Source: an uncultured Bacteroidia bacterium (lineage in GTDB: Bacteria; Bacteroidota; Bacteroidia; Bacteroidales; UBA932). From it: 64,000 nucleotides of DNA. Below are positions 2,386 to 63,600 of this stretch, piece after piece (within the stretch, counting starts at the first letter, position 1; every line of letters begins with the position of its first letter). Position numbers and translations under genes: made by a program. The notes beneath the pieces are model-generated. The model was not told the DNA's origin, searched no databases, and saw only the letters and a list, made by a program, of their open reading frames with translations. The stretch spans positions 25,275 through 89,274 of the forward strand of contig CACZCQ010000008.1 of NCBI GenBank assembly GCA_902779765.1, written 5' to 3'.

Positions 2386-2425
2386 ATCTAGATTCGTTAT
2401 TATTCGGATTATTCCGGCAAGACTG

Positions 2426-2433
2426 CAAATTTA
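2426..2433 (-). promoter_or_regulatory. Putative -7 element of aspS promoter
   Basis: Reads TAAATTTG on the minus strand, matching the Bacteroidetes -7 consensus TAnnTTTG. It lies 41 bases upstream of the aspS ATG, inside the 96-bp divergent aspS/ksgA spacer. A convincing -33 element is not obvious. Confidence 0.5.
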
Positions 2434-2469
2434 GCAAATTATGTCCAACCTTGATAGAAGAAAATGAGT

Positions 2470-2477
2470 TATCTTTG
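2470..2477 (+). promoter_or_regulatory. Putative -7 element of ksgA promoter; decides the start codon
   Basis: TATCTTTG matches TAnnTTTG, with a TTG at 2451-2453 as candidate -33 element. The expected transcription start falls within a few bases of the ATG at 2482, so the upstream in-frame ATG at 2464 lies inside the promoter and cannot be the translation start. The transcript would be nearly leaderless. Confidence 0.55.
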
Positions 2478-2481
2478 TGAC

Positions 2482-3585
2482 ATGGAAGTTCGCGCAAAAA
2501 AAGCCCTGGGGCAGCATTTCCTCACCGACCAGTCCGTCGCCACCCGCATCGTCGGCGCCCTGCAGGGCTCCGATGTCCTCGAGGTCGGCCCCGGCATGGG
2601 CGTCCTGACGCAATACCTGCTACCGCAGGATTGCGTCGAGCCTTCCACCCCCCTGCACCCCCAAGGGGGACTGAGGGGCGTTCCCCTCAGACACGATACC
2701 GTGTCATCTTCCACCCCCCTGCACCCCCAAGGGGGACTGAGGGGCGTTCCCCTCAGACACCCTGAATTGCAGAGTTCAGAAGAATTCAAGACGGCGAAAG
2801 TGGACGAAGTTGCCGGCCCGGCGGGCGAGACCACTGCCACCCTCGGCACGTTAAGAGGGGGGACCGGAGCGGAACGAAGTGAAGCGAGCGGTGGGGCCGA
2901 GCAAAGCGAGGCGGTCGAGTCGCCGGAACCGGCAACTTCGGACCGTCACCTGCAAGTCGTCGAGATCGACAAGGAAAGCGTGGAGTATCTGAAGAAGCAT
3001 TACCCTTCGTTGGGTGACGGGCTGATAGAGGGAGACTTCCTGAAGATGGACCTTTCCAGCCTGTTCCCTGGCCGGTTCTCCATCATCGGCAACTTCCCGT
3101 ACAACATCTCTTCCCAGATATTCTTCAAGATCCTCGACTGCCGCGACCTTGTTCCGGAAGTCGTCTGCATGATCCAGAAGGAAGTCGCCGAACGTATCGC
3201 CGAGAAGCCCGGCACCAAGACCTATGGGATCCTTTCCGTATTCCTTCAGGCCTGGTATGACATTGAATATCTGTTCACGGTCGGTCCCGGTGCATTCAAT
3301 CCTCCGCCCAAGGTCCAGTCAGCCGTAATCCGCCTCACACGAAACTCGCGCACGTCGCTCGGCTGTGACGAAAAGCTATTCCGTACAGTTGTCAAGACCG
3401 CCTTCGGCCAGAGACGCAAAACCTTGCGCAACTCCCTCAAGCCGCTGATCCGGCAAGCTCAGGGACCTCAAGGGCAGGACAGCGCCTCCAGTCCGGACAT
3501 CTCTGCGAATCCGGTTTTCGACCTCCGTCCCGAACGCCTCAGCGTCGAGGACTTCATCGCCCTGACCCTGATGCTCCAGCAGTAA
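2482..3585 (+). CDS. rsmA/ksgA: 16S rRNA (adenine1518-N6/adenine1519-N6)-dimethyltransferase with repeat-derived insertion
   Basis: Dimethylates two adjacent adenines in helix 45 of 16S rRNA late in 30S assembly, using SAM. Visible family motifs: N-terminal [14 protein letters not shown] motif [13 protein letters not shown] (residues 33-43); ribose-binding acid EID (161-163); catalytic motif IV NFPYNIS; C-terminal [12 protein letters not shown]. The protein is 367 residues, against about 260-270 for the family. The excess is a block of about 105 residues (about 50-154) between motif I and the EID strand, where orthologues have only a short loop. The block is coded by two copies of a GC-rich hairpin repeat followed by a Glu/Ser/Ala-rich stretch ([10 protein letters not shown]). 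A second small insertion ([10 protein letters not shown]) lies near the C-terminus. The frame stays open throughout, so the product is probably made. Start at 2482 chosen because 2464 lies in the promoter. Confidence 0.93.
2645..2758 (+). repeat. Two GC-rich hairpin repeat units inside ksgA (66-bp period)
   Basis: Two near-identical 48-bp units at 2645-2692 and 2711-2758. Each contains the hairpin CTGAGGGGCGTTCCCCTCAG and a C-run/G-run pair (CACCCCCAAGGGGG). They are the reverse complement of the tandem array at 40013-40200. The 66-bp spacing is a multiple of three, so both copies are read in the same frame and encode the same peptide, [16 protein letters not shown]. Confidence 0.9.
3451..3475 (+). 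repeat. Degenerate copy of the short in-frame repeat near the ksgA 3' end
   Basis: Contains GGCAAGCTCAGGG, matching most of the short repeat seen exactly at 62045-62063, and encodes RQAQGPQG. It lies between the conserved [11 protein letters not shown] segment and the C-terminal [10 protein letters not shown] segment of KsgA, where a length-variable loop is expected. Confidence 0.5.
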
Positions 3586-3651
3586 TCCGCCGCGGATCCT
3601 TTCCCCGTTTTGGGCGTTTTTCCAAAGTAGCTGATTATCATTATATTACAG

Positions 3652-3682
3652 AAAATGCATAGTTTAATAGTCTACGCATTTT
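3652..3682. repeat. Left hairpin copy flanking the RAYT gene
   Basis: AAAATGCATAG pairs with CTACGCATTTT (one A:C mismatch) around a 9-nt loop. The same hairpin recurs in direct orientation at 4911-4941, and both copies are followed about 30 bp later by the shared string AAAAACGGC (ending at 3721 and 4980). The pair brackets the transposase gene. Confidence 0.75.
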
Positions 3683-3726
3683 TCATAACTTTATAACAAT
3701 CAATTATTTCCAAAAAACGGCAAGGA

Positions 3727-3838
3727 TTAATTCACGTTATCCTGTTCTAAGAACTCCTGGTCCATTAATGGTACTTTTATCTTTCGTAGCATCTCGTTGA
3801 TCAAGGTATCACCACTGTGACAAAATCCTATTACTTTA
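3727..3838 (-). pseudogene. Possible remnant reading frame downstream of the RAYT gene
   Basis: After the RAYT stop codon a second minus-strand frame reads about 36 codons with protein-like composition (GFCHSGDTLINEMLRK, then PLMDQEFLEQDN) before a TAA at 3727-3729. It has no plausible start codon and is preceded by in-frame stops. It may be the decayed end of a gene or part of an ancestral longer element; no family is recognised. The rest of the 265-bp ksgA-RAYT spacer holds only the left hairpin. Confidence 0.25.
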
Positions 3839-3850
3839 TTTCAAACAACC

Positions 3851-4810
3851 TCAAAGTGATACTATATCTTCATTGCTCCGCCGTTTAGGTTTCAGTTTAT
3901 AAACCCGGAGCAATGTCCCGGCTATGAAACTAGACACATGCTGCTTCCTTATCATGGTGTTACACAGTTTCCTCCTGTCCTCATCCGACAGCCTTAGGAC
4001 ATCTTTGGGATTGGCAAAGCCATAATCACGGGACAAGGATTTAATAAGACGATAATATGGTTCATATGACCCGTCAGAGTATTCTTCCTTGAAATCATGT
4101 TCGCTTCCAACGTTGGAAGCAAAGGCTATCTTCATGTTTCCATACGATCCATAAAGACGAATAAGATATTTATAATCAACGACTTTAAATTTGACAATTA
4201 TATGATCAACCAGTTGTTCGCGCTCATCAGGGGACAGGCTCGTGAAACACTTCCTCAAAAAATAATGGTTCAGGTATTGTCCCCTATCAAACATACTCCT
4301 TACTTCGAGAAGACATTTCCGCATATTTATGGAGGCCTTCCTCACAATCAGCTTCTTCGAAAATGGATGATCCGATTCTGCATATGCCATAAAATTCCAC
4401 CTGTAGCTCTCCGCATTGACAGCCAACTGCTTCTCGACCGGATTATTATACAGATAGGCGGAAGCTTCCTTCTGCTTCTTGTTCCCGACTTTGTTCGATA
4501 AGCCATAAACCGGCATGAAGACATGACCTCTAATACCCGCGTCTTTGTTGAACTCCCTTGCATATGCAGCCTCAAGTTCGCAAAGGAATCTTGCTATTAT
4601 GTCGTGTGACTTGGCCCGGACCGTCAGGTGATAGTGATTGAACATGCAAACTACACCCAATACCATAATACAGTACTTGATTTTAAGGGTGTAAATGATG
4701 GTGTAGAAAACGAGAATGTCCCTGACTGAATAAAAAAGCACGGACATATTGAACCCTCTTTGATAGATGTGGGCGATACCCCTGCTATCGTATTTGATTA
4801 TTCTAGGCAT
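3851..4810 (-). CDS. REP-associated tyrosine transposase (RAYT, Y1/HUH family)
   Basis: A 319-residue protein of the single-stranded-DNA Y1 transposase superfamily. The N-terminus MPRIIKYDSRGIAHIYQRG resembles the RAYT opening (MPR..R....G..YHV..RG). The HUH pair sits in MFNHYHLTV (His59 and His61), the counterpart of the common MPNHYHLL motif. The candidate nucleophile is Tyr119 or Tyr121 in ASAYLYNNPV, the usual Y.H.NPV region. About 190 residues of basic, helix-rich C-terminus follow with no recognised domain. RAYTs mobilise or process REP hairpins rather than autonomous insertion sequences. Codon usage is AT-richer than the neighbours. The gene is bracketed by direct hairpin copies at 3652-3682 and 4911-4941. 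Both His residues and the Tyr are present, so it may be active. Confidence 0.85.
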   Translation of the reverse strand: MPRIIKYDSRGIAHIYQRGFNMSVLFYSVRDILVFYTIIYTLKIKYCIMVLGVVCMFNHYHLTVRAKSHDIIARFLCELEAAYAREFNKDAGIRGHVFMPVYGLSNKVGNKKQKEASAYLYNNPVEKQLAVNAESYRWNFMAYAESDHPFSKKLIVRKASINMRKCLLEVRSMFDRGQYLNHYFLRKCFTSLSPDEREQLVDHIIVKFKVVDYKYLIRLYGSYGNMKIAFASNVGSEHDFKEEYSDGSYEPYYRLIKSLSRDYGFANPKDVLRLSDEDRRKLCNTMIRKQHVSSFIAGTLLRVYKLKPKRRSNEDIVSL

Positions 4811-4910
4811 AGGAGTCTTTCATGTTTTAGTTTAAGTACAGCTAAATTAATGAAAATAATCCTGCCGGGAAAGCGTTTTTTGAAATGGGTTGAATATGAG
4901 GACAATACAA

Positions 4911-4941
4911 AAAATGCGTAGAATAATAATCTACGCATTTT
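4911..4941. repeat. Right hairpin copy flanking the RAYT gene
   Basis: A perfect 12-bp stem: AAAATGCGTAGA pairs with TCTACGCATTTT around the loop ATAATAA. It is the intact version of the left copy at 3652-3682 and lies about 100 bp upstream of the RAYT start. Confidence 0.8.
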
Positions 4942-5019
4942 CCATAATAGACTAGTTTTCAGTAACTTCCGAAAAACGGCCGAACAAAAAGGCAGGCCAC
5001 CAGGGTCGGGAACCAGGTC

Positions 5020-6120
5020 CTATCTGAAGATATTCATTACCTGGACGCAGGCGCGGGCGTCGTGCATCGGGTACATCCTGAAAGCGATGGTGTCCACCGT
5101 GTCGTTGAGGTGGTCCTTGATATAATCCCAGATGCGCATGGCGTAATCGGCTCCCTCGGGAACTCCCTGGTATTTCCAGGAGCAGAGGTTCGCGATAAGG
5201 GCTTCGGCCTGTACCCAGGGCACCATCTGGCTGTCGATCTCGCCTTCGGAATCCTTTCCGAGGACCACATAACCATCCCCGCAGAGACCGTCCATGCCGG
5301 CCTTGTAGAGCTGCAGACAGGTCTCCTTAACGTGATTGATCGCATCGATGTCCTCGATTGCATAAGCAGCATCAAGGATCGACCAGGAAGCTTCGAGGTC
5401 AAGACCATAGACACATCCGGAGGGAACTACGTTCCACTCCCTGCTGAACCTGGTCTCAAGATGACCTGTGTTCGGGTTGAAGAACTCGGAGATCATCACG
5501 TCCAGGAGGTCGGCTATTACTCCGCGCAGGGAGGCATCCCTCCATACCCTGTAGAGGTTGGAGTAGCTTTCAAGGAGGTAGAGATGCGACTCGGCGAGCT
5601 TGGACTCGTCCTTGACCGTGAAATCACGGGCCAGGGCCTCGCGGTATCCGCCGAACTCAAGGTCGTGGAATTCCTTCTCGAGTATCTTGTACAGGTTGAC
5701 GGCCTGCTTCAGGGACTCTTCGTCCTTGGTGGCTCCGTAGAATTCGCTCAGAGCGTAGATGGCAAGGGCCTGGTTGCTCAGGAGGGCATCAGTGTCCTTC
5801 TTCTCGCCCCAGGAATCCACGTAGACGAAAGCACCGCCGAACTTGTGGTCGATGAAATGCTGGATGAAATAATCCTTGCCGTTCATCGCAGGCATCAGGT
5901 ATTCTTTCTTACGGAATATACGATAGGCATTGGAGAACGCCCAGATTATACGGGCGTTGAGCTGCTCGTCCCTGTCTGCGTCCTTGTCGGCAGCAAGCCC
6001 CTCGGCGATCTTCCCGTAGAAGCCGCCGTGGGGATCCTGCATGCCTGACCAAAACTTGAGGATGTCCCACTCGAGGACTTCCTTGACTTCCTTTATCAGA
6101 GTGTCTGTCCTTCCGATCAT
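5020..6120 (-). CDS. N-acylglucosamine 2-epimerase / cellobiose 2-epimerase family protein
   Basis: A 366-residue (alpha/alpha)6-barrel protein of the AGE/CE superfamily, which epimerises C2 of reducing-end glucose or mannose. The family segment SHLYLLESYSNLYRVW is clear, and the C-terminal catalytic histidine appears in PMHDARACVQV. In characterised cellobiose/mannobiose 2-epimerases a second catalytic histidine lies in GHDIEASW; here that motif reads YGLDLEASW, so the histidine is a leucine. The substrate may differ or the reaction may be altered. Start taken at 6120 (MIGRTDTLIKEVKE); the frame extends 38 codons further upstream but only into the end of the preceding DUF1080 gene. It lies 13 bp behind that gene, so the two form an operon. 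No signal peptide, so cytoplasmic. Confidence 0.8.
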   Translation of the reverse strand: MIGRTDTLIKEVKEVLEWDILKFWSGMQDPHGGFYGKIAEGLAADKDADRDEQLNARIIWAFSNAYRIFRKKEYLMPAMNGKDYFIQHFIDHKFGGAFVYVDSWGEKKDTDALLSNQALAIYALSEFYGATKDEESLKQAVNLYKILEKEFHDLEFGGYREALARDFTVKDESKLAESHLYLLESYSNLYRVWRDASLRGVIADLLDVMISEFFNPNTGHLETRFSREWNVVPSGCVYGLDLEASWSILDAAYAIEDIDAINHVKETCLQLYKAGMDGLCGDGYVVLGKDSEGEIDSQMVPWVQAEALIANLCSWKYQGVPEGADYAMRIWDYIKDHLNDTVDTIAFRMYPMHDARACVQVMNIFR

Positions 6121-9707: not shown

Positions 9708-12574
9708 CAGAAAACGATCATTCAGGTTTCCTGAAAGAGATTTCCGAATTCATTCCTGCGGAAAGGATTTACACCGATGAACTCCGCAGGCTCGCATGGG
9801 GTACCGACGCCGGGTTTTACCGGCTTGTCCCGAAGATAGTAATCCGTTCCGAAAACGAAGAGGAGATATCCCGGATCCTCCGGACCGCCGACAGGCTGAA
9901 AGTCCCGGTTACCTTCAGGGCAGCGGGCACAAGCCTCTCCGGACAGGCCGTGAGCGATTCCGTTCTCGTGGTGGCCGGAAAGAACTGGGAGGGATACGCC
10001 ATCTCCGAGGATGCCGGGCTGGTCACCCTCGAGCCGGGACTTGTCGGAGCGAGGGTAAACGATATCCTTAAGCCTCTGGGAAGGAAGTTCGGCCCGGATC
10101 CGGCATCGATAGGTTCCTGCATGGTGGGCGGAATCGTCATGAACAATGCTTCCGGAATGAGTTGCGGCATACATGCCAATTCCGACAGGATGATGGTCTC
10201 TGCAAGGATGGTCCTGCCGGACGGAACCGTCCTGGACACCGGGGACGAGAGTTCGAAGGAATCGTTCAGGTCAAGCCACCCGGGATTCATCCGCGCGATA
10301 GAGGATCTTCGCAAGGAAGTACTTGAAAACAAAGAGCTTACCGAAAGGATCAGGTTTAAGTATTCCATCAAGAATGTGACCGGGCTGAACCTGCTGCCAC
10401 TTATCACGTTCGAGGATCCGTTCGACATTATCGCCCACCTCCTGGTGGGTTCGGAGGGCACGCTTGCCTTCCTGAGCCGGGTCACGATGAAGACCCTCCC
10501 GCTCGCTCCATTCAAGGCAAGCGCGATGATCTATTTCAGGTCCATCAAGGATGCGGCCGAGGCGGTGGTCGCAATGAAAAAGGCTGTGGGACCCGGAGTC
10601 ATAAATGCTGCCGAATTGCTGGACAGGAGGTCGCTCGTGTCGGTGTCCGACCCTATGCTTTCCGAATATGGGGACACGGACCTGACCGCCGTCCTGACGG
10701 AAACTACGGCTTCGGCCAGGGAGGAACTTGAGGGCAATATCGAGAGGATCAAAGAGGCCCTTCGAACCACGGTCGGTGAGCCTGTCGAACCGCCGGAATT
10801 CACGACCGATCCGGCCGTATATTCGAAATACTGGGCGATCCGGGCCGGGATATTCCCTTCCGTGGGAGGTCTGCGAAAACAGGGAACCACCTGCCTCATA
10901 GAGGATGTCGCATTCCACATCGAAGACCTGCCTCAGGCCACGGAGGACCTCTCCGCCCTGCTCGACAGGCACGGATATGAGGATTCCTGCATATACGGCC
11001 ACGCCCTCGAAGGCAACTTCCACTTCATCATCAACCAGGCTTTCGATTCCGAAAGCGAAGTCCGGCGATACGAAGAGATGATCCGTGACGTGGCTTCCAT
11101 GGTCGTAGGCAAGTATGACGGATCGCTGAAGGCCGAACACGGCACCGGTCGCAACATGGCTCCTTTCGTGGAATACGAATGGGGGAAGGATGCCTTCAGG
11201 GTCATGAAGCGGATCAAGGATATCTTCGATCCGAAAGGGCTGTTGAATCCCGGCGTGATCTTCAACGACGACCCTTCCTGCTTCCTGAAGGATTTCAAGC
11301 CTCTGCCGATACTGCCTTACGGAGAAAAGATCAACAAGTGCATCGAATGCGGATTCTGCGAGGTCAACTGCGTTTCCTGCGGGTTCACCCTCTCGTCCAG
11401 GACGCGTATCGTGATACGGCGGGAGATCGAAAGGCTGAAGGCCGTCGGTAATCCGACTCCGGAAGAGACTGCGAAGCTCCATACCCTCCTGAAGGAATAT
11501 TCATACCTCGGGGAAGAGACCTGTGCTGCTGACGGCCTGTGCTCCATGTCCTGCCCGATGGGAATCAATGTCGGAGACATGACCCATATGATTCGCCAGG
11601 AAAACAATCCTCCCGGATCGGCGGGCTACCGGATGTGGTCATTCGCCGCCGACCATTTCCCTGCCGTGAAAAAAGGGGTGCGCAGCGTCCTGAGGCTTGC
11701 CTCTGCAGGAGACGCCATTCTGGGTGACAAGGCCATGGCGGGACTGTGCAGGGGGCTGCATGATAAGTTGGGCCTCCCGCTCTGGACCCCCTCCACCCCG
11801 AAGGCGTATTCGATTCAGGTCCCTAAACTTGTCCCTTCGGTCCCTGAGCTTGTCGAAGGGCCAGTGGGTCGCGTGGTGTATTTCCCGTCCTGCTTAAACC
11901 AGATGATGGGACTTCCTCGCCATACCCGCGTCGTGGACAAGCCGCTGGCGGAGGAGATGGTCTCGCTGCTGCATAAGGCCGGATACGAAGTGATATTTCC
12001 GGAGAACATGGAGAGCCTCTGCTGCGGTATGATGTGGGAAAGCAAGGGCATGCCGGACCTGGCGGACAAAAAGGCCAAAGAACTTGAAAAGGCCCTTTGG
12101 GAGGCTTCTGAGCACGGTCGCTGGCCGGTACTCTGCGACCAGAGCCCCTGCCTGCACAGGATGAGGAAGACCATCGGTTCGATGAAACTCTACGAGCCCG
12201 CCGAATTCATAATGACCTTCCTGAAGGACCGCCTCGAATTCCACCCGACAGACACACCGGTGGCCGTGCACATAACCTGTTCGACCAGGCTGATGGGACT
12301 GGCGGATACGATCGTATCCCTGGCCAGGTTCTGCTCCACGAATGTGACAGTACCTGAAGGAGTCGGTTGCTGCGGCTTCGCGGGAGACAAGGGCATGACC
12401 CGTCCCGAACTCAACGCTTGGGCGCTCCGGAAGCTCAAGGACGGTGTCAAAGGCATCCCGGTCGGGTATTCGAACTCCCGCACCTGCGAGATAGGTCTCT
12501 CGACCAACTCCGGCATCCCCTACGTCTCCATCGCATATCTGGTGAATTCCTGCACGACCCCGAAAATTGCATAA
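9704..12574 (+). CDS. FAD-linked oxidase / 4Fe-4S fusion dehydrogenase (D-2-hydroxyacid type, YdiJ/GlcD-GlcF-like)
   Basis: A 956-residue fusion enzyme, probably oxidising a D-2-hydroxyacid (D-lactate, D-2-hydroxyglutarate or glycolate) and passing electrons to quinone. Residues ~35-270 are the FAD-binding fold (VTFRAAGTSLSGQAVSD; GPDPASIGSCMVGGIVMNNASG), then the FAD-oxidase C-terminal domain (GHALEGNFHF; EHGTGRNMAPFVE). Two ferredoxin-like clusters follow (CIECGFCEVNC; CAADGLCSMSCP), then two CCG cysteine-rich domains (YFPSCLNQ with CCGMMW; HITCSTRL with GCCGFAG). Start at 9704 overlaps DUF456 by four bases. Short repeats are read in frame at 10774-10792 (VGEPVEPPEF) and 11842-11860 (VPELVEGPVG); the second lies in the linker before the CCG domains. 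The exact substrate cannot be told from sequence. Confidence 0.85.
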   Translation: MTENDHSGFLKEISEFIPAERIYTDELRRLAWGTDAGFYRLVPKIVIRSENEEEISRILRTADRLKVPVTFRAAGTSLSGQAVSDSVLVVAGKNWEGYAISEDAGLVTLEPGLVGARVNDILKPLGRKFGPDPASIGSCMVGGIVMNNASGMSCGIHANSDRMMVSARMVLPDGTVLDTGDESSKESFRSSHPGFIRAIEDLRKEVLENKELTERIRFKYSIKNVTGLNLLPLITFEDPFDIIAHLLVGSEGTLAFLSRVTMKTLPLAPFKASAMIYFRSIKDAAEAVVAMKKAVGPGVINAAELLDRRSLVSVSDPMLSEYGDTDLTAVLTETTASAREELEGNIERIKEALRTTVGEPVEPPEFTTDPAVYSKYWAIRAGIFPSVGGLRKQGTTCLIEDVAFHIEDLPQATEDLSALLDRHGYEDSCIYGHALEGNFHFIINQAFDSESEVRRYEEMIRDVASMVVGKYDGSLKAEHGTGRNMAPFVEYEWGKDAFRVMKRIKDIFDPKGLLNPGVIFNDDPSCFLKDFKPLPILPYGEKINKCIECGFCEVNCVSCGFTLSSRTRIVIRREIERLKAVGNPTPEETAKLHTLLKEYSYLGEETCAADGLCSMSCPMGINVGDMTHMIRQENNPPGSAGYRMWSFAADHFPAVKKGVRSVLRLASAGDAILGDKAMAGLCRGLHDKLGLPLWTPSTPKAYSIQVPKLVPSVPELVEGPVGRVVYFPSCLNQMMGLPRHTRVVDKPLAEEMVSLLHKAGYEVIFPENMESLCCGMMWESKGMPDLADKKAKELEKALWEASEHGRWPVLCDQSPCLHRMRKTIGSMKLYEPAEFIMTFLKDRLEFHPTDTPVAVHITCSTRLMGLADTIVSLARFCSTNVTVPEGVGCCGFAGDKGMTRPELNAWALRKLKDGVKGIPVGYSNSRTCEIGLSTNSGIPYVSIAYLVNSCTTPKIA
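10774..10792 (+). repeat. In-frame short repeat, GGTGAGCCTGTCGAACC type
   Basis: CGGTGAGCCTGTCGAACCG, a sister form of the CCCTGAGCTTGTCGAAGGG repeat, read as GEPVEP within the FAD-oxidase domain of the dehydrogenase. Confidence 0.55.
11842..11860 (+). repeat. In-frame short repeat, CCCTGAGCTTGTCGAAGGG
   Basis: Exact 19-bp repeat read as VPELVEGP. A degenerate partner (CCCTAAACTTGTCCCTTCGG) lies directly before it at 11821-11840. The peptide sits between the Fe-S domain and the first CCG domain. The same 19-mer recurs at 49532-49550 and, in reverse orientation, at 62045-62063. Confidence 0.8.
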
Positions 12575-40012: not shown

Positions 40013-40200
40013 GTCTGAGGGGAACGCCCCTCAGTCCCCCAATGGGGGTGCAGGGGGGTAAAAGAAGTGACGACGGCACGTCGTCTGAGGGGAACACCCC
40101 TCAGTCCCCCATCGGGGGTGCAGGGGGGTAAAAGAAGTGACGACGGCACGTCGTCTGAGGGGAACGCCCCTCAGTCCCCCAATGGGGGTGCAGGGGGGTA
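40013..40200 (+). repeat. GC-rich tandem hairpin array, 70-bp period
   Basis: Three units begin at 40013, 40083 and 40153 (the third incomplete). Each has the hairpin CTGAGGGGAACGCCCCTCAG (one unit has ACA for ACG), a second hairpin from CCCCC and GGGGG, and GCAGGGGGG. Units 1 and 2 carry a conserved 24-bp tail. It is the reverse complement of the repeat inside ksgA (2645-2758). The palindromes and identical tails exclude CRISPR; it resembles a REP/BIME-type cluster. Confidence 0.9.
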
Positions 40201-40212
40201 GATTGGGACAGC

Positions 40213-40245
40213 AAAAAGGCCACCGGCTGAGCCGATGGCCTTTTT
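40213..40245 (-). terminator. Rho-independent terminator downstream of tRNA-Met
   Basis: AAAAAGGCCA..CGGC pairs with GCCG..TGGCCTTTTT around a TGA loop, with A and T runs on both sides, so it can work in both directions. It ends two bases beyond the tRNA 3' end. Confidence 0.85.
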
Positions 40246-51761: not shown

Positions 51762-51783
51762 TAAGTATTGAAAACCACTCATT

Positions 51784-52626
51784 ATGAAAAGAGCACTACT
51801 AATCCTCATGGCGGCCCTCATGGTCCTGCCTGCAAGCGTTTCCGCAAAGAAAAAGACCGCGGATGTCAAGGTAATCTCCTACAACATCCGGCTGGGCGTT
51901 GCGAAAGACGGAACCAATTCATGGGAATTCCGTTACCCGGCATCGGCGATGATGATAATGGACCAGAAACCGGACATCTTCGGTCTCCAGGAAGCCTATG
52001 ACTTCCAGGTCAAATATCTGGAAGAATACTGCGAGGGATATAAGAGCGTAGGTGTCGGCCGCGAAGACGGCAAGCACGAGGGCGAGCATATGTCCATATT
52101 CTACAACAAGAAGACAACCAAGCTGCTGAAATGGGGAACTTTCTGGCTTTCGGATACTCCCGAAGTCCCCTCGATGGGCTGGGACGCCGCCTGCTTCCGC
52201 ACTGCAACCTGGGCCCTGCTTAAAGACAAGGCAAGCGGCAGGAAATATTACTATGTCAACACCCATCTCGACCACAGAGGCTGGCAGGCACGCAAGAATG
52301 GAATGAAGCTCATCGTCGACAGGATCGACAGCATCAATCCTCAAGGTCTTCCGATGATCGTCACAGGTGACTTCAACATGACCATCGACCGTCCCGAGTT
52401 CGACGATATGAAGAAGATCATGAAGAATGCCCGTGAAGAGGCTGCCAAGACCGACCATCACCAGACCTTCAACGGCTGGGGAAAGGCCAGTCCGAACAGC
52501 ATCATCGACTTCATCTGGTACAAGGGATTCAGTTCATGCCCCGAGTACGAGACCATCACGAAGCCTTACATGGAGAGGACTTACATCTCCGACCATTTCC
52601 CTATCAGGGCCACGCTGGTCTTCTAG
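51784..52626 (+). CDS. Exported EEP-family hydrolase, copy 1
   Basis: 280 residues with signal peptide (LLILMAALMVLPASVSA). EEP motifs: VISYNIRLG (Asn), IFGLQEAYDFQ (Glu), YYVNTHLDHRG, VTGDFNMTIDRPEF (Asp/Asn), YISDHFPI (Asp-His). Members are secreted phosphodiesterases, phosphatases or nucleases. It is the first of two tandem copies, separated by 29 bp, that are about 85% identical by eye count. Probably involved in phosphate or nucleic-acid scavenging, but the substrate cannot be read from sequence. Confidence 0.87.
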   Translation: MKRALLILMAALMVLPASVSAKKKTADVKVISYNIRLGVAKDGTNSWEFRYPASAMMIMDQKPDIFGLQEAYDFQVKYLEEYCEGYKSVGVGREDGKHEGEHMSIFYNKKTTKLLKWGTFWLSDTPEVPSMGWDAACFRTATWALLKDKASGRKYYYVNTHLDHRGWQARKNGMKLIVDRIDSINPQGLPMIVTGDFNMTIDRPEFDDMKKIMKNAREEAAKTDHHQTFNGWGKASPNSIIDFIWYKGFSSCPEYETITKPYMERTYISDHFPIRATLVF

Positions 52627-52655
52627 TCTCCAACCGGTAGCAACTGGATCACATC

Positions 52656-53498
52656 ATGAAAAGAGTTTTCCTGATTCTCATGGCAGCCCTGATGGTGCTG
52701 CCCATGAGTGTTTCCGCAAGGAAGAAAGATTCGGCCATCAAGGTCATTTCATACAACATCCGCCTTGGCACTGCCAATGACGGAGACAACTCCTGGGAGT
52801 TTCGCTATCCGGCATCGTCGATGATGATAAATGACCAGAAGCCGGACATATTCGGTCTTCAGGAAGCCTATGACTTCCAGGTAAATTACCTTGAAGAGGC
52901 CTGTCCGGATTATAAGAGTGTCGGTGTGGGCCGTGAGGACGGCATCCACAAAGGCGAACATATGTCCATCTTCTACAACACGAAGACTACGAAACTCCTG
53001 AAGTGGGGAACATTCTGGCTCTCGGAGACTCCCGATGTCCCCTCGAAGGGATGGGATGCCCAGTGCTTCCGTACCGCGACCTGGGCCCTGCTCAAGGACA
53101 AGGCCAGCGGCAGGAAATATTACTATGTCAACACCCATCTCGACCATGTAGGTTGGGAAGCCCGCAAGAACGGCATGAAACTGATCGTCGACAGGATTGA
53201 CAGCATCAATCCAAAGGGACTCCCGATGGTGGTCACGGGCGACTTCAATATGAGGATAAACAGGCCGGAATTCGATGACATGAAGAAACTGATGAAGAAC
53301 GCCCGAGAGGAGGCTGTCAAGACCGACCACCACCAGACCGCAAACGGATGGGGAAAATCAAAGCCTGACTCCATCATCGACTATATCTGGTTCAAGGGAT
53401 TCTCATCCTGCCCGATGTACGAAACCATCACCAAGCAGTACATGGGACGGCAGTACATCTCCGACCATTTCCCCATTACCGCCACCCTGGTTTTCTAA
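52656..53498 (+). CDS. Exported EEP-family hydrolase, copy 2
   Basis: 280 residues, same length and motif set as copy 1 (VISYNIRLG, IFGLQEAYDF, VTGDFNMRINRPEF, YISDHFPI). About 43 differences from copy 1, concentrated in the signal-peptide junction and surface loops, while active-site segments are identical; both copies therefore look functional. It probably shares the promoter at 51754 and is followed 18 bp later by the serine hydrolase gene. Confidence 0.87.
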   Translation: MKRVFLILMAALMVLPMSVSARKKDSAIKVISYNIRLGTANDGDNSWEFRYPASSMMINDQKPDIFGLQEAYDFQVNYLEEACPDYKSVGVGREDGIHKGEHMSIFYNTKTTKLLKWGTFWLSETPDVPSKGWDAQCFRTATWALLKDKASGRKYYYVNTHLDHVGWEARKNGMKLIVDRIDSINPKGLPMVVTGDFNMRINRPEFDDMKKLMKNAREEAVKTDHHQTANGWGKSKPDSIIDYIWFKGFSSCPMYETITKQYMGRQYISDHFPITATLVF

Positions 53499-61743: not shown

Positions 61744-63600
61744 ATGAGAGAACTCGAACTTCTTGCTCCGGCAAGAAATGCAGACATCGGCATTGCAGCA
61801 ATAGACTGCGGTGCCGATGCCGTATATATAGCCGGACCTGAGTTCGGAGCCAGGCAGAACGCCGGCAACCGGATGGAGGATATCCGGAGGCTTTGCGACT
61901 ACGCTCACCGCTTCGGAGCAAGGATATTCCTGACCCTCAACACTATCCTTTTCGATACCGAGCTCCCCGCCGCAGAAAAGCTGCTGAAACAGGCTGCGGA
62001 GGCCGGGGTTGATGCCGTGATCGTTCAGGACCTGGCCGTATTCGCCCTTCGACAAGCTCAGGGATTCCCACCGCTGCACGCGTCGACGCAGTGCGCGATA
62101 AGGACTCCTGAACAGGCCAGGTTCTACGAAGCGTTGGGGGCTACAAGGCTGGTTCTGGAACGGCAGCTGTCCCTGGAGCAGATCCGCGCGATACGCCGGG
62201 TGGTTTCCTGCGAACTGGAGTTCTTCGTCCACGGAGCACTGTGCGTCTGCTACAGCGGGCAATGCTATATGTCCGAGGCTATAGAAGGGAGAAGCGCCAA
62301 CCGCGGGGCCTGTATCCAGGCGTGCCGGTCGCTCTACGACCTCGTGGATGGAAACGGGAAGGTACTCGTCAAGGACAAGGCCCTTCTTTCGCTGAAGGAT
62401 TACAACCTCCTCTCCAGACTGGAGGAACTTGCGGACCGCGGGGTATGTTCATTCAAGATCGAGGGCAGGCTCAAGAACATATCCTATGTCAGGAATGTCG
62501 TAAGGGCATATTCATCGGCCATGGACGGACTGGTGGCAAAGCATCCGGACCGCTACCGCAGGGCTTCCTTCGGTAAGGCGGAGGGCGGTTTTACCCCAGA
62601 TCCGGGAAAGACGTTCAACCGCGGCTACACGGAACTTTTCCTGGACGGCAAGCGCGGGAAGTGGTCTTCCATGGACACTCCGAAATCAGTCGGACAACCT
62701 GTCGGAACCGTCTCGATGATATCGACCGGTGACCCTCGGGGTGGTGCAGGAAGGGATCCCGGAGCCATAAGACGACCGGCTTTCGCACCGGAGATAATGC
62801 AGGTCCAGGTCAGTCTGGACAACCCGGCCATATACCTGAAGAACGGAGACGGATTCTCCTTCGTCTCAAGGGATCACAACAATATAATCGGATTCCGCGC
62901 AGATACCTGCCGCGGGGCGAAAATCATAGCCAGGAATGTGCCTGAGCTCTATGTCGGTGCCAGACTGTACAGGAATCTCGACACGGCCTTCGAGAAAGAG
63001 ATGGAGACCAACCTACCGGAAAGGAGGATACCGGTCGGGGTAAATATCTCAGTTTCATCTGAAGGGCCGGATAATTACCGTATCCAAGTGTCTGCGGAAA
63101 GCCAGGACGGAAGGATCGTGGAGTTCTCACCCGAAGGTGGTAGCCAGAAAGCGTCTAATACCGAACGTATAAAAGCCATGTTCGGATCGCAGATAGGGAA
63201 GAATACGGGAATATATTCTTTTGAGCTCAAGGGTCTGGACATCAGGACCAAGGATGGCAGCCTGCCGTTCATAACCGCTTCTGCTCTCAACGGAATACGC
63301 AGGGAACTGGCGGAACGGCTGGACGGGATGCCCTGCAGGGCGATTCCTATGGGCGGGCCTGTCTCATCGGAAACCGGTTCCGTAAAAGTGCCCGGAGAGA
63401 TTACATACAAGGCCAACGTGGCCAACGGAACAGCCGAAAGGATCTGGCGAAAGTACGGAGCTGAAAAGGTCGAGAAGGCATTCGAACTCTCGCACAGGAA
63501 AGATGCCGAGCTTATGAGGAGCAAGTACTGCATCCGTCACGAACTCGGCATTTGCCTGAAAGATTCCGGTCCTGTTTCGACTGCAGGAACTGCGAGATGA
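61744..63600 (+). CDS. U32 family peptidase / RNA-modifying protein (TrhP/RlhA-like)
   Basis: 618 residues. U32 core: LELLAPARNADIGIAAIDCGADAVY, LHASTQCAIRT, FVHGALCVCYSGQCYMSE, GRSANRGACIQACR, FKIEGRLKN; the C-terminal half carries SKYCIRHELGICLK. U32 proteins of this type support tRNA or rRNA hydroxylation (TrhP, RlhA) in enterobacteria; proteolysis is doubtful. Cysteines for the Fe-S-like site are present. The short palindromic repeat at 62045-62063 is read in frame as LRQAQGFP, lengthening the loop before the LHASTQ strand. It starts immediately after the TPR gene. Confidence 0.87.
   Translation: MRELELLAPARNADIGIAAIDCGADAVYIAGPEFGARQNAGNRMEDIRRLCDYAHRFGARIFLTLNTILFDTELPAAEKLLKQAAEAGVDAVIVQDLAVFALRQAQGFPPLHASTQCAIRTPEQARFYEALGATRLVLERQLSLEQIRAIRRVVSCELEFFVHGALCVCYSGQCYMSEAIEGRSANRGACIQACRSLYDLVDGNGKVLVKDKALLSLKDYNLLSRLEELADRGVCSFKIEGRLKNISYVRNVVRAYSSAMDGLVAKHPDRYRRASFGKAEGGFTPDPGKTFNRGYTELFLDGKRGKWSSMDTPKSVGQPVGTVSMISTGDPRGGAGRDPGAIRRPAFAPEIMQVQVSLDNPAIYLKNGDGFSFVSRDHNNIIGFRADTCRGAKIIARNVPELYVGARLYRNLDTAFEKEMETNLPERRIPVGVNISVSSEGPDNYRIQVSAESQDGRIVEFSPEGGSQKASNTERIKAMFGSQIGKNTGIYSFELKGLDIRTKDGSLPFITASALNGIRRELAERLDGMPCRAIPMGGPVSSETGSVKVPGEITYKANVANGTAERIWRKYGAEKVEKAFELSHRKDAELMRSKYCIRHELGICLKDSGPVSTAGTAR
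62045..62063 (+). repeat. In-frame short repeat in the U32 gene
   Basis: CCCTTCGACAAGCTCAGGG, the exact reverse complement of the repeat at 11842-11860 and 49532-49550. It encodes LRQAQG, the same peptide as the copy in the TPR regulator. Confidence 0.8.

Follow-up and report, generated by a model that had tools for sequence, protein, structure and literature searches.

The stretch of DNA considered here, 64,000 nucleotides of contig CACZCQ010000008.1 (assembly GCA_902779765.1) from an uncultured bacterium of the Bacteroidales, is referred to below as the window. On its plus strand, at 2482-3585, it carries ksgA/rsmA, the gene for the 16S rRNA A1518/A1519 dimethyltransferase, and this gene is interrupted in frame by a block built from self-complementary repeats, one of which recurs inside many other protein genes. 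By its family cut-off and the fold of its predicted product the gene is KsgA/RsmA: the NCBIfam ksgA model (TIGR00755) matches with 239.2 bits against a cut-off of 171, Pfam RrnaAD gives 150 bits, and a Foldseek search with the predicted model returned KsgA structures as its top matches (best 3tqs, E 5e-23). The open reading frame (ORF) 2464-3585 has no internal stop and encodes 373 aa counted from the ATG at 2464, the true start being probably the ATG at 2482 (MEVRAKK), which homology favours. The TIGR00755 match is split in two stretches, with methyltransferase homology both 5' and 3' of the insert. An intact frame and conserved methyltransferase motifs on both sides had been reported in a first-pass annotation, made by a model from the letters alone, and both observations hold.

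The limits of the insert were set by aligning KsgA proteins, a kind of comparison that the first-pass annotation had itself proposed. Among the 110 loci examined one (L041) failed the motif filter, and the 109 kept comprise 104 distinct proteins, five pairs being identical. In this alignment, and with the translation checked, the insert occupies 2632-2940 (plus strand; 309 nt, 103 codons), one codon less on each side than the block of ~315 bp at 2629-2943 proposed before, and lies in the loop that follows the motif-I helix and precedes the strand with EID. In the predicted structure (48-sequence alignment) 213 of 367 residues reach a predicted local distance difference test (pLDDT) value of at least 90; most of the insert falls below 50 (residues 59-81 and 83-141), and residues 52 to 156 have no assigned secondary structure. 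The simplest picture offered by the model would be a disordered loop on an intact KsgA fold, in line with the earlier idea that a large surface loop is tolerated. Among the matches listed for this genome (designated G000), a single one to the whole KsgA protein covers the methyltransferase, the remainder comprising only insert-region residues and their edges. Because only one ksgA appears among those matches, the interrupted gene is presumably the functional copy that does the work in this genome, and the enzyme is likely to be made and active while carrying its insert.

Two repeat families, A and B, make up most of the insert, in the order of two identical 53-nt family A hairpins, a short linker and one family B hairpin of ~135 nt. 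The first family A unit, a repeat resembling the repetitive extragenic palindromic (REP) type, lies at 2642-2694 with its hairpin CTGAGGGG-CGTT-CCCCTCAG at 2671-2690, and the second lies 66 nt downstream at 2708-2760 (hairpin 2737-2756), both on the plus strand. The family B element follows on the same strand at 2805-2940 and consists of a core common to all copies (2832-2913, ~82 nt) enclosed by outer arms that vary from copy to copy but are complementary within each copy. In ksgA the terminal arms are perfect over 12 nt, the left one (2805-2816, CGAAGTTGCCGG) being the exact reverse complement of the right one (2929-2940). On sequence comparison there is hardly any doubt that the insert is repeat-derived and in frame. 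The first-pass annotation had recognized the two family A hairpins and described the third block as a Glu/Ser/Ala-rich tract; the tract is indeed present, but it comes from a repeat family distinct from A and matched 19 times in G000, which had been overlooked. The scope of that annotation is thus too narrow, since such repeats occur throughout the genome and the third block forms an element of its own, with co-varying arms.

Family A is not a chance pattern, because the 2.48 Mb genome contains its exact form 11 times and the reversed control not once. Of the nine copies situated elsewhere than in ksgA, eight form three tandem arrays with spacings of 68-70 nt, one of them an array of three copies on the minus strand at 40013-40222 (period 70) without a spanning open frame; none of the nine sites is crossed by an open frame of more than 147 aa. 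The 66-nt spacing within ksgA had been set against the 70-nt intergenic period as a sign of selection for frame. It is compatible with such a constraint, but as evidence it is weak: the other spacings are 70, 70, 68, 69 and 68 nt, and one spacing divisible by three means little when 69 is also divisible and ksgA is a single case. The tags GTAG and CGTC are both missing from the interior of the two ksgA units, and 8 of the 11 copies have CGTC no more than ~18 nt from the unit, at no fixed position.

The same region of KsgA has received different sequences in related genomes. The best named matches to the protein come from metagenome-assembled genomes (MAGs) of uncultured Bacteroidales or Bacteroidia, several from ruminants, and the nearest with a genus name is Candidatus Cryptobacteroides (locus L105, 79% identity). 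The nearest group, ranked by KsgA similarity and not by a tree, consists of G000 and the genomes of L094-L104, its eleven best matches, with L102 and a further locus, L013, belonging to one genome (G017, identical with G069). An insert of at least 8 residues follows motif I in nine of these twelve genomes, G000 included, and in none of the remaining KsgA proteins of the 109 aligned. Family A is found in this loop in L094, L097 and G000, family B in sense orientation in G000, L095 and L097 and reversed in L096, family D in L102 and L103, a B/C-like hybrid in L099 and a 14-residue piece of unclear origin in L098. At the same loop, L104 (genome G071) carries a family F repeat reading VILSEAKNL, which lies under the 8-residue threshold. 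A second loop, before motif I, is extended by an insert of 8 or more residues in 31 of the 109 proteins, with family C in both orientations among these inserts. On the alignment, KsgA in the nearest group is repeatedly colonized at a few loops, since differing repeat inserts recur at both loops among relatives. For family D, the pair L098/L103 was considered as an empty and a filled site and rejected as proof of insertion, the 72-nt difference being flanked by CGAG repeats, which might be a target site duplication but between which a deletion would look identical and explains the pair equally well.

These comparisons bear on two proposals. One, raised in the first-pass annotation, is that it is removed from the RNA or the protein in an intron-, intein- or bypass-like manner, which would suit its length, its location in an rRNA-modifying enzyme and the hairpin that joins the ends of B. 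The frame is open and kept, however, so that nothing requires removal, a scan of 2400-5100 gave no Rfam match at gathering score (one match lies below it), and different repeats of different lengths occupy the same loop in sister genomes; removal is therefore very improbable. The other proposal, that the insert is an assembly artefact, could invoke the fragmentation of the genome into 31 contigs and the general difficulty of assembling repeats. The earlier annotation had named such an error as what would overturn it, and it can practically be dismissed, given that MAGs from several projects carry the same families in frame at these loops and that ksgA lies inside its contig.

Family B is the component with the widest distribution. 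Besides its 19 matches in G000, at least 216 were found in ten sister genomes, a lower bound, as scoring was limited to 40 candidates in three of these genomes; matches to the insert region number 29 in G017. The sister copies sampled were 30 of the 216 that came from loci also included above and 100 of the remainder, so that weaker copies are under-sampled. From 198 hits, 43 that were partial or at edges were dropped and duplicates removed, leaving 132 distinct complete cores. The genes that carry B are often housekeeping genes. Ten host ORFs of G000 were compared with NCBIfam and nine found a match: four (ispE, fmt, purD and a GH92 hydrolase) above the curated cut-off and five below it, by resemblance to dihydrolipoamide (E2) acyltransferase, RsmF, argD, RlmB and aldehyde dehydrogenase. 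In purD and argD a single loop holds, depending on the genome, B, reversed B, other repeats, one-arm remnants or nothing, and in purD of genome G064 (L194) a B element carries a second sequence nested in its core, still in frame.

As regards the reading frame, a copy counted as genic only when each of its two 300-nt flanks, assessed by itself, had no stop and a positive codon-usage score on the same strand, a label based on flank codon usage and not on annotation. By this definition 46 of the 132 copies are genic, lying in the message in sense (27) or antisense (19) orientation, and 43 of the 46 share one open frame with both sides, where one third would be expected (p = 1.4e-17). Only two of six phases are used by these 43, +1 in the 24 sense and -1 in the 19 antisense copies. 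Of all 132 copies, genic or not, 131 are open in the first of these phases and 127 in the second, so that B reads through in both directions by itself. Judged from these sequences, B is almost certainly a genome-wide in-frame family. A B variant shorter by 4 nt was considered as a mark of intergenic copies and is not claimed as such, a later count having found it in only 2 of 132.

Evidence that the arms of B change together comes from several comparisons. In a set of 35 copies, 17.4 of 24 arm positions were paired, a value that none of 200 shuffles reached; with shuffled partners it was 10.6. Over the 132 copies the mean arm alignment score was 38.3 with a copy's own partner and 6.6 with swapped partners (sd 0.56, 30 shuffles), and 130 of the 132 lay above the 95% null. 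Within 33 flank-matched groups of the same orientation the own partner scored better on average in 29, equally in four and worse in none. Moreover, 57 pairs of copies yielded 191 double arm changes, 177 of which replace one Watson-Crick pair by another, where 56.9 would be expected if the arms were independent. The arms of B thus very probably co-vary.

Compensatory changes of this kind are the classic sign of selection on an RNA structure, and the arms might be kept complementary by selection on a hairpin in the message, acting through stability, pausing or folding. The insert does fold better than its shuffles (z -2.98 for B, -3.43 for the whole KsgA insert), and on the element's own strand G.T mismatches outnumber A.C, as detailed below. 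Such selection would be expected to permit G.U mismatches on the coding strand but not A.C. On that strand, however, there is no wobble excess, the outer arms having 8 G.U and 15 A.C mismatches and the whole arms 21 and 32 (p = 0.17); pairing is no weaker in non-genic copies (40.1, compared with 34.9 in genic ones); and B stands in either orientation relative to the message. Selection on an RNA hairpin is, on balance, a rather improbable cause of the covariation.

The core of B is itself found in both orientations among genomes at 21 of 32 flank-matched loci, and at seven of the 32, ksgA included, opposite cores stand between outer arms that are homologous on both sides. The clearest reversal opposes genomes G066 and G071 (L283/L278), with left arms 92% and right arms 65% alike around a reversed core. 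Such cases weigh on a further explanation, in which every copy arose separately, by insertion into a palindrome already present at the target, the arms being target sequence that needs no correction. Arms do differ between loci, some empty sites hold short palindromes (by eye, AAGGCCTCTGAGGCCTT in purD of G017), and a review describes Yersinia YPAL targets that span or adjoin dyad symmetry (PMC2229807). Against it speak the flank-matched copies whose similar arms differ by paired changes and the similar arms that enclose reversed cores, as in G066 and G071; ready-made arms of such length in many housekeeping genes would also be surprising, and this explanation appears doubtful. A host origin of the arms was suggested by purD of G064, where the right arm looked native, but the empty sites in aldehyde dehydrogenase and IspH do not confirm it.

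A mechanism acting on DNA would account for both observations. In yeast coding DNA, template switching between inverted repeats is reported to homogenize the arms and invert the spacers (PMC8604942), and a second report describes template switching as creating and maintaining perfect stems (PMC8794818). Because one mechanism predicts both paired arms and reversed cores, template switching is judged the likeliest cause of the two, and is held with moderate confidence. In the scheme proposed here, short selfish palindromes would land in a tolerant loop of KsgA and the insert would be translated as a disordered loop on a still working enzyme; template switching during replication, between the inverted arms, would homogenize these arms and invert the spacers, and selection would then retain the in-frame survivors inside genes. 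On this reading, given a probability of about 0.82, the KsgA insert consists of selfish DNA in the form of short palindromes, which settled in a loop able to tolerate them and are translated; B belongs to an in-frame, clade-wide set of elements whose arms are corrected at the DNA level.

Several observations weigh against this reading or limit its reach. The flank-matched groups were defined by flank similarity and not by trees, and they are related by descent, so that their covariation counts do not amount to separate trials. On the element's own strand G.T mismatches exceed A.C (88 and 50 over whole arms in 130 copies; 33 and 28, a slight difference, in the outer arms), an excess that may be due to fixed mismatches of the inner arms. 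Empty sites in IspH, aldehyde dehydrogenase and purD fit an origin of the arms from the host or from the element alike. Opposite-orientation pairs have homologous arms in only 15 of 84 cases, and the others may be separate insertions. Regarding the frame, phase -2 is open in 40 of the 46 genic copies and used by none, which is left unexplained, and genic copies show no difference from the others in core length modulo 3 (43 of 46 vs 77 of 86, p = 0.54), nor did they in an earlier sample of 39 copies (p = 0.28). That the frame is kept, as the first-pass annotation noted, is supported for B by the shared open frame of the genic copies; selection for a length that preserves the frame is not demonstrated. 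Finally, translation and activity of the insert-bearing KsgA are inferred from the sequence and the predicted model.

A stronger version would make B a self-maintaining, reversible coding palindrome, in which template switching or a dedicated recombinase keeps the arms perfect and flips the core in place. This is regarded as unlikely, but if true, each flip would exchange one disordered loop peptide for another, both strands being open in one fixed phase, and would do so in dozens of housekeeping enzymes, perhaps even inside a single population.

The neighbourhood of ksgA contains other repeats and one conspicuous gene. Just downstream, at 3851-4810 on the minus strand, lies a gene for a Y1 transposase that resembles the REP-associated tyrosine transposases (RAYT), reads NHYH and is flanked by 111-nt imperfect inverted repeats, 70% complementary (3609-4984). 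Its scores, 19.8 bits for Y1_Tnp and 20.1 bits for REP_Tyr_transpos, are below the curated cut-offs. By its proximity this gene is a candidate mobilizer, but no hit of families A-F at E 1e-3 was found in the 1.5 kb flanks of the genome's four Y1_Tnp matches; the ksgA insert sits just outside one of the flanks searched. The C-terminal tail of KsgA (3451-3467) has a weak, partial 17-nt match (E 0.011) to a dispersed repeat family E, CGGTCCCTGAGCTTGTCGAAGGGCC, which is also found in the window at 10770, 11838, 49527 and 62044-62064, and sister KsgA tails carry family D and E-like sequence. Elsewhere in the window, two direct repeats of 300 nt each (51780-52079 and 52652-52951) are 77% identical and 872 nt apart.

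In this bacterium and related ones, self-complementary DNA is remodelling proteins, which matters in more than one respect. At least four repeat families (A, B, C and D) have entered ksgA alone and returned to the same loops, so that it can be asked which protein sites accept new sequence. Co-varying arms in coding DNA offer a natural test of whether DNA template switching or RNA selection lies behind compensatory change, two sources whose confusion affects the inference of RNA structure from covariation. The reversed cores suggest, in addition, that coding sequence is rewritten in place with the frame unbroken.

Among the papers listed by searches of an open-access library, none was judged to be a relevant prior description of such palindromic or REP elements in Cryptobacteroides, Bacteroidetes or Bacteroidales. 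Among known kinds of element, B answers to the description of a dispersed palindrome of ~100-150 nt, with its 19 matches in G000 and its hairpin fold. Its ends are not fixed, and its outer arms vary among copies, unlike the conserved terminal inverted repeats of a miniature inverted-repeat transposable element (MITE). Intragenic invertons, for which Chanin et al. (2024) reportedly found coding DNA between inverted repeats in both orientations, offer another parallel, but the orientations of B differ between genomes (at the 21 of 32 loci mentioned) and its arms are not a fixed site. The GTAG/CGTC REPs are described as short hairpins located within ORFs, many of which belong to repair and replication genes (Di Nocera et al. 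2013, PMC3733652), and short REP hairpins inside ORFs are seen here as well. B, however, is longer, has variable arms and lacks a conserved tag (of 132 cores, 20 contain GTAG, none CTAC, 7 CGTC and 37 GACG).

Coding inverted repeats with arms kept complementary occur in nematomorph mitochondria, where the authors suggest template switching or conversion (PMC6649704); those palindromes are perfect, lie in conserved coding sequence and are not presented by the authors as derived from a single dispersed core, such as B has. The yeast process (PMC8604942) predicts the arm covariation and reversed cores of B and is described for short inverted repeats and not for a dispersed bacterial family. In-frame palindromic elements are best known from Rickettsia, and the present ones come from uncultured gut Bacteroidales. 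The Rickettsia palindromic elements (RPE) measure 105-146 bp, are spread genome-wide and in frame in conserved protein genes and are tolerated by the one enzyme that was assayed (PMC2229807). B is likewise a dispersed palindrome found in frame inside conserved protein genes, a likeness drawn from description and not from sequence. It differs in belonging to another phylum, in having its core in both orientations at the same loci, and in having copy-specific, co-varying arms where those of the RPE decay, the Rickettsia elements being said to lose repeat identity over time (PMC6649704). By analogy, selfish in-frame palindromes like the Rickettsia RPEs would be the best reading of B.
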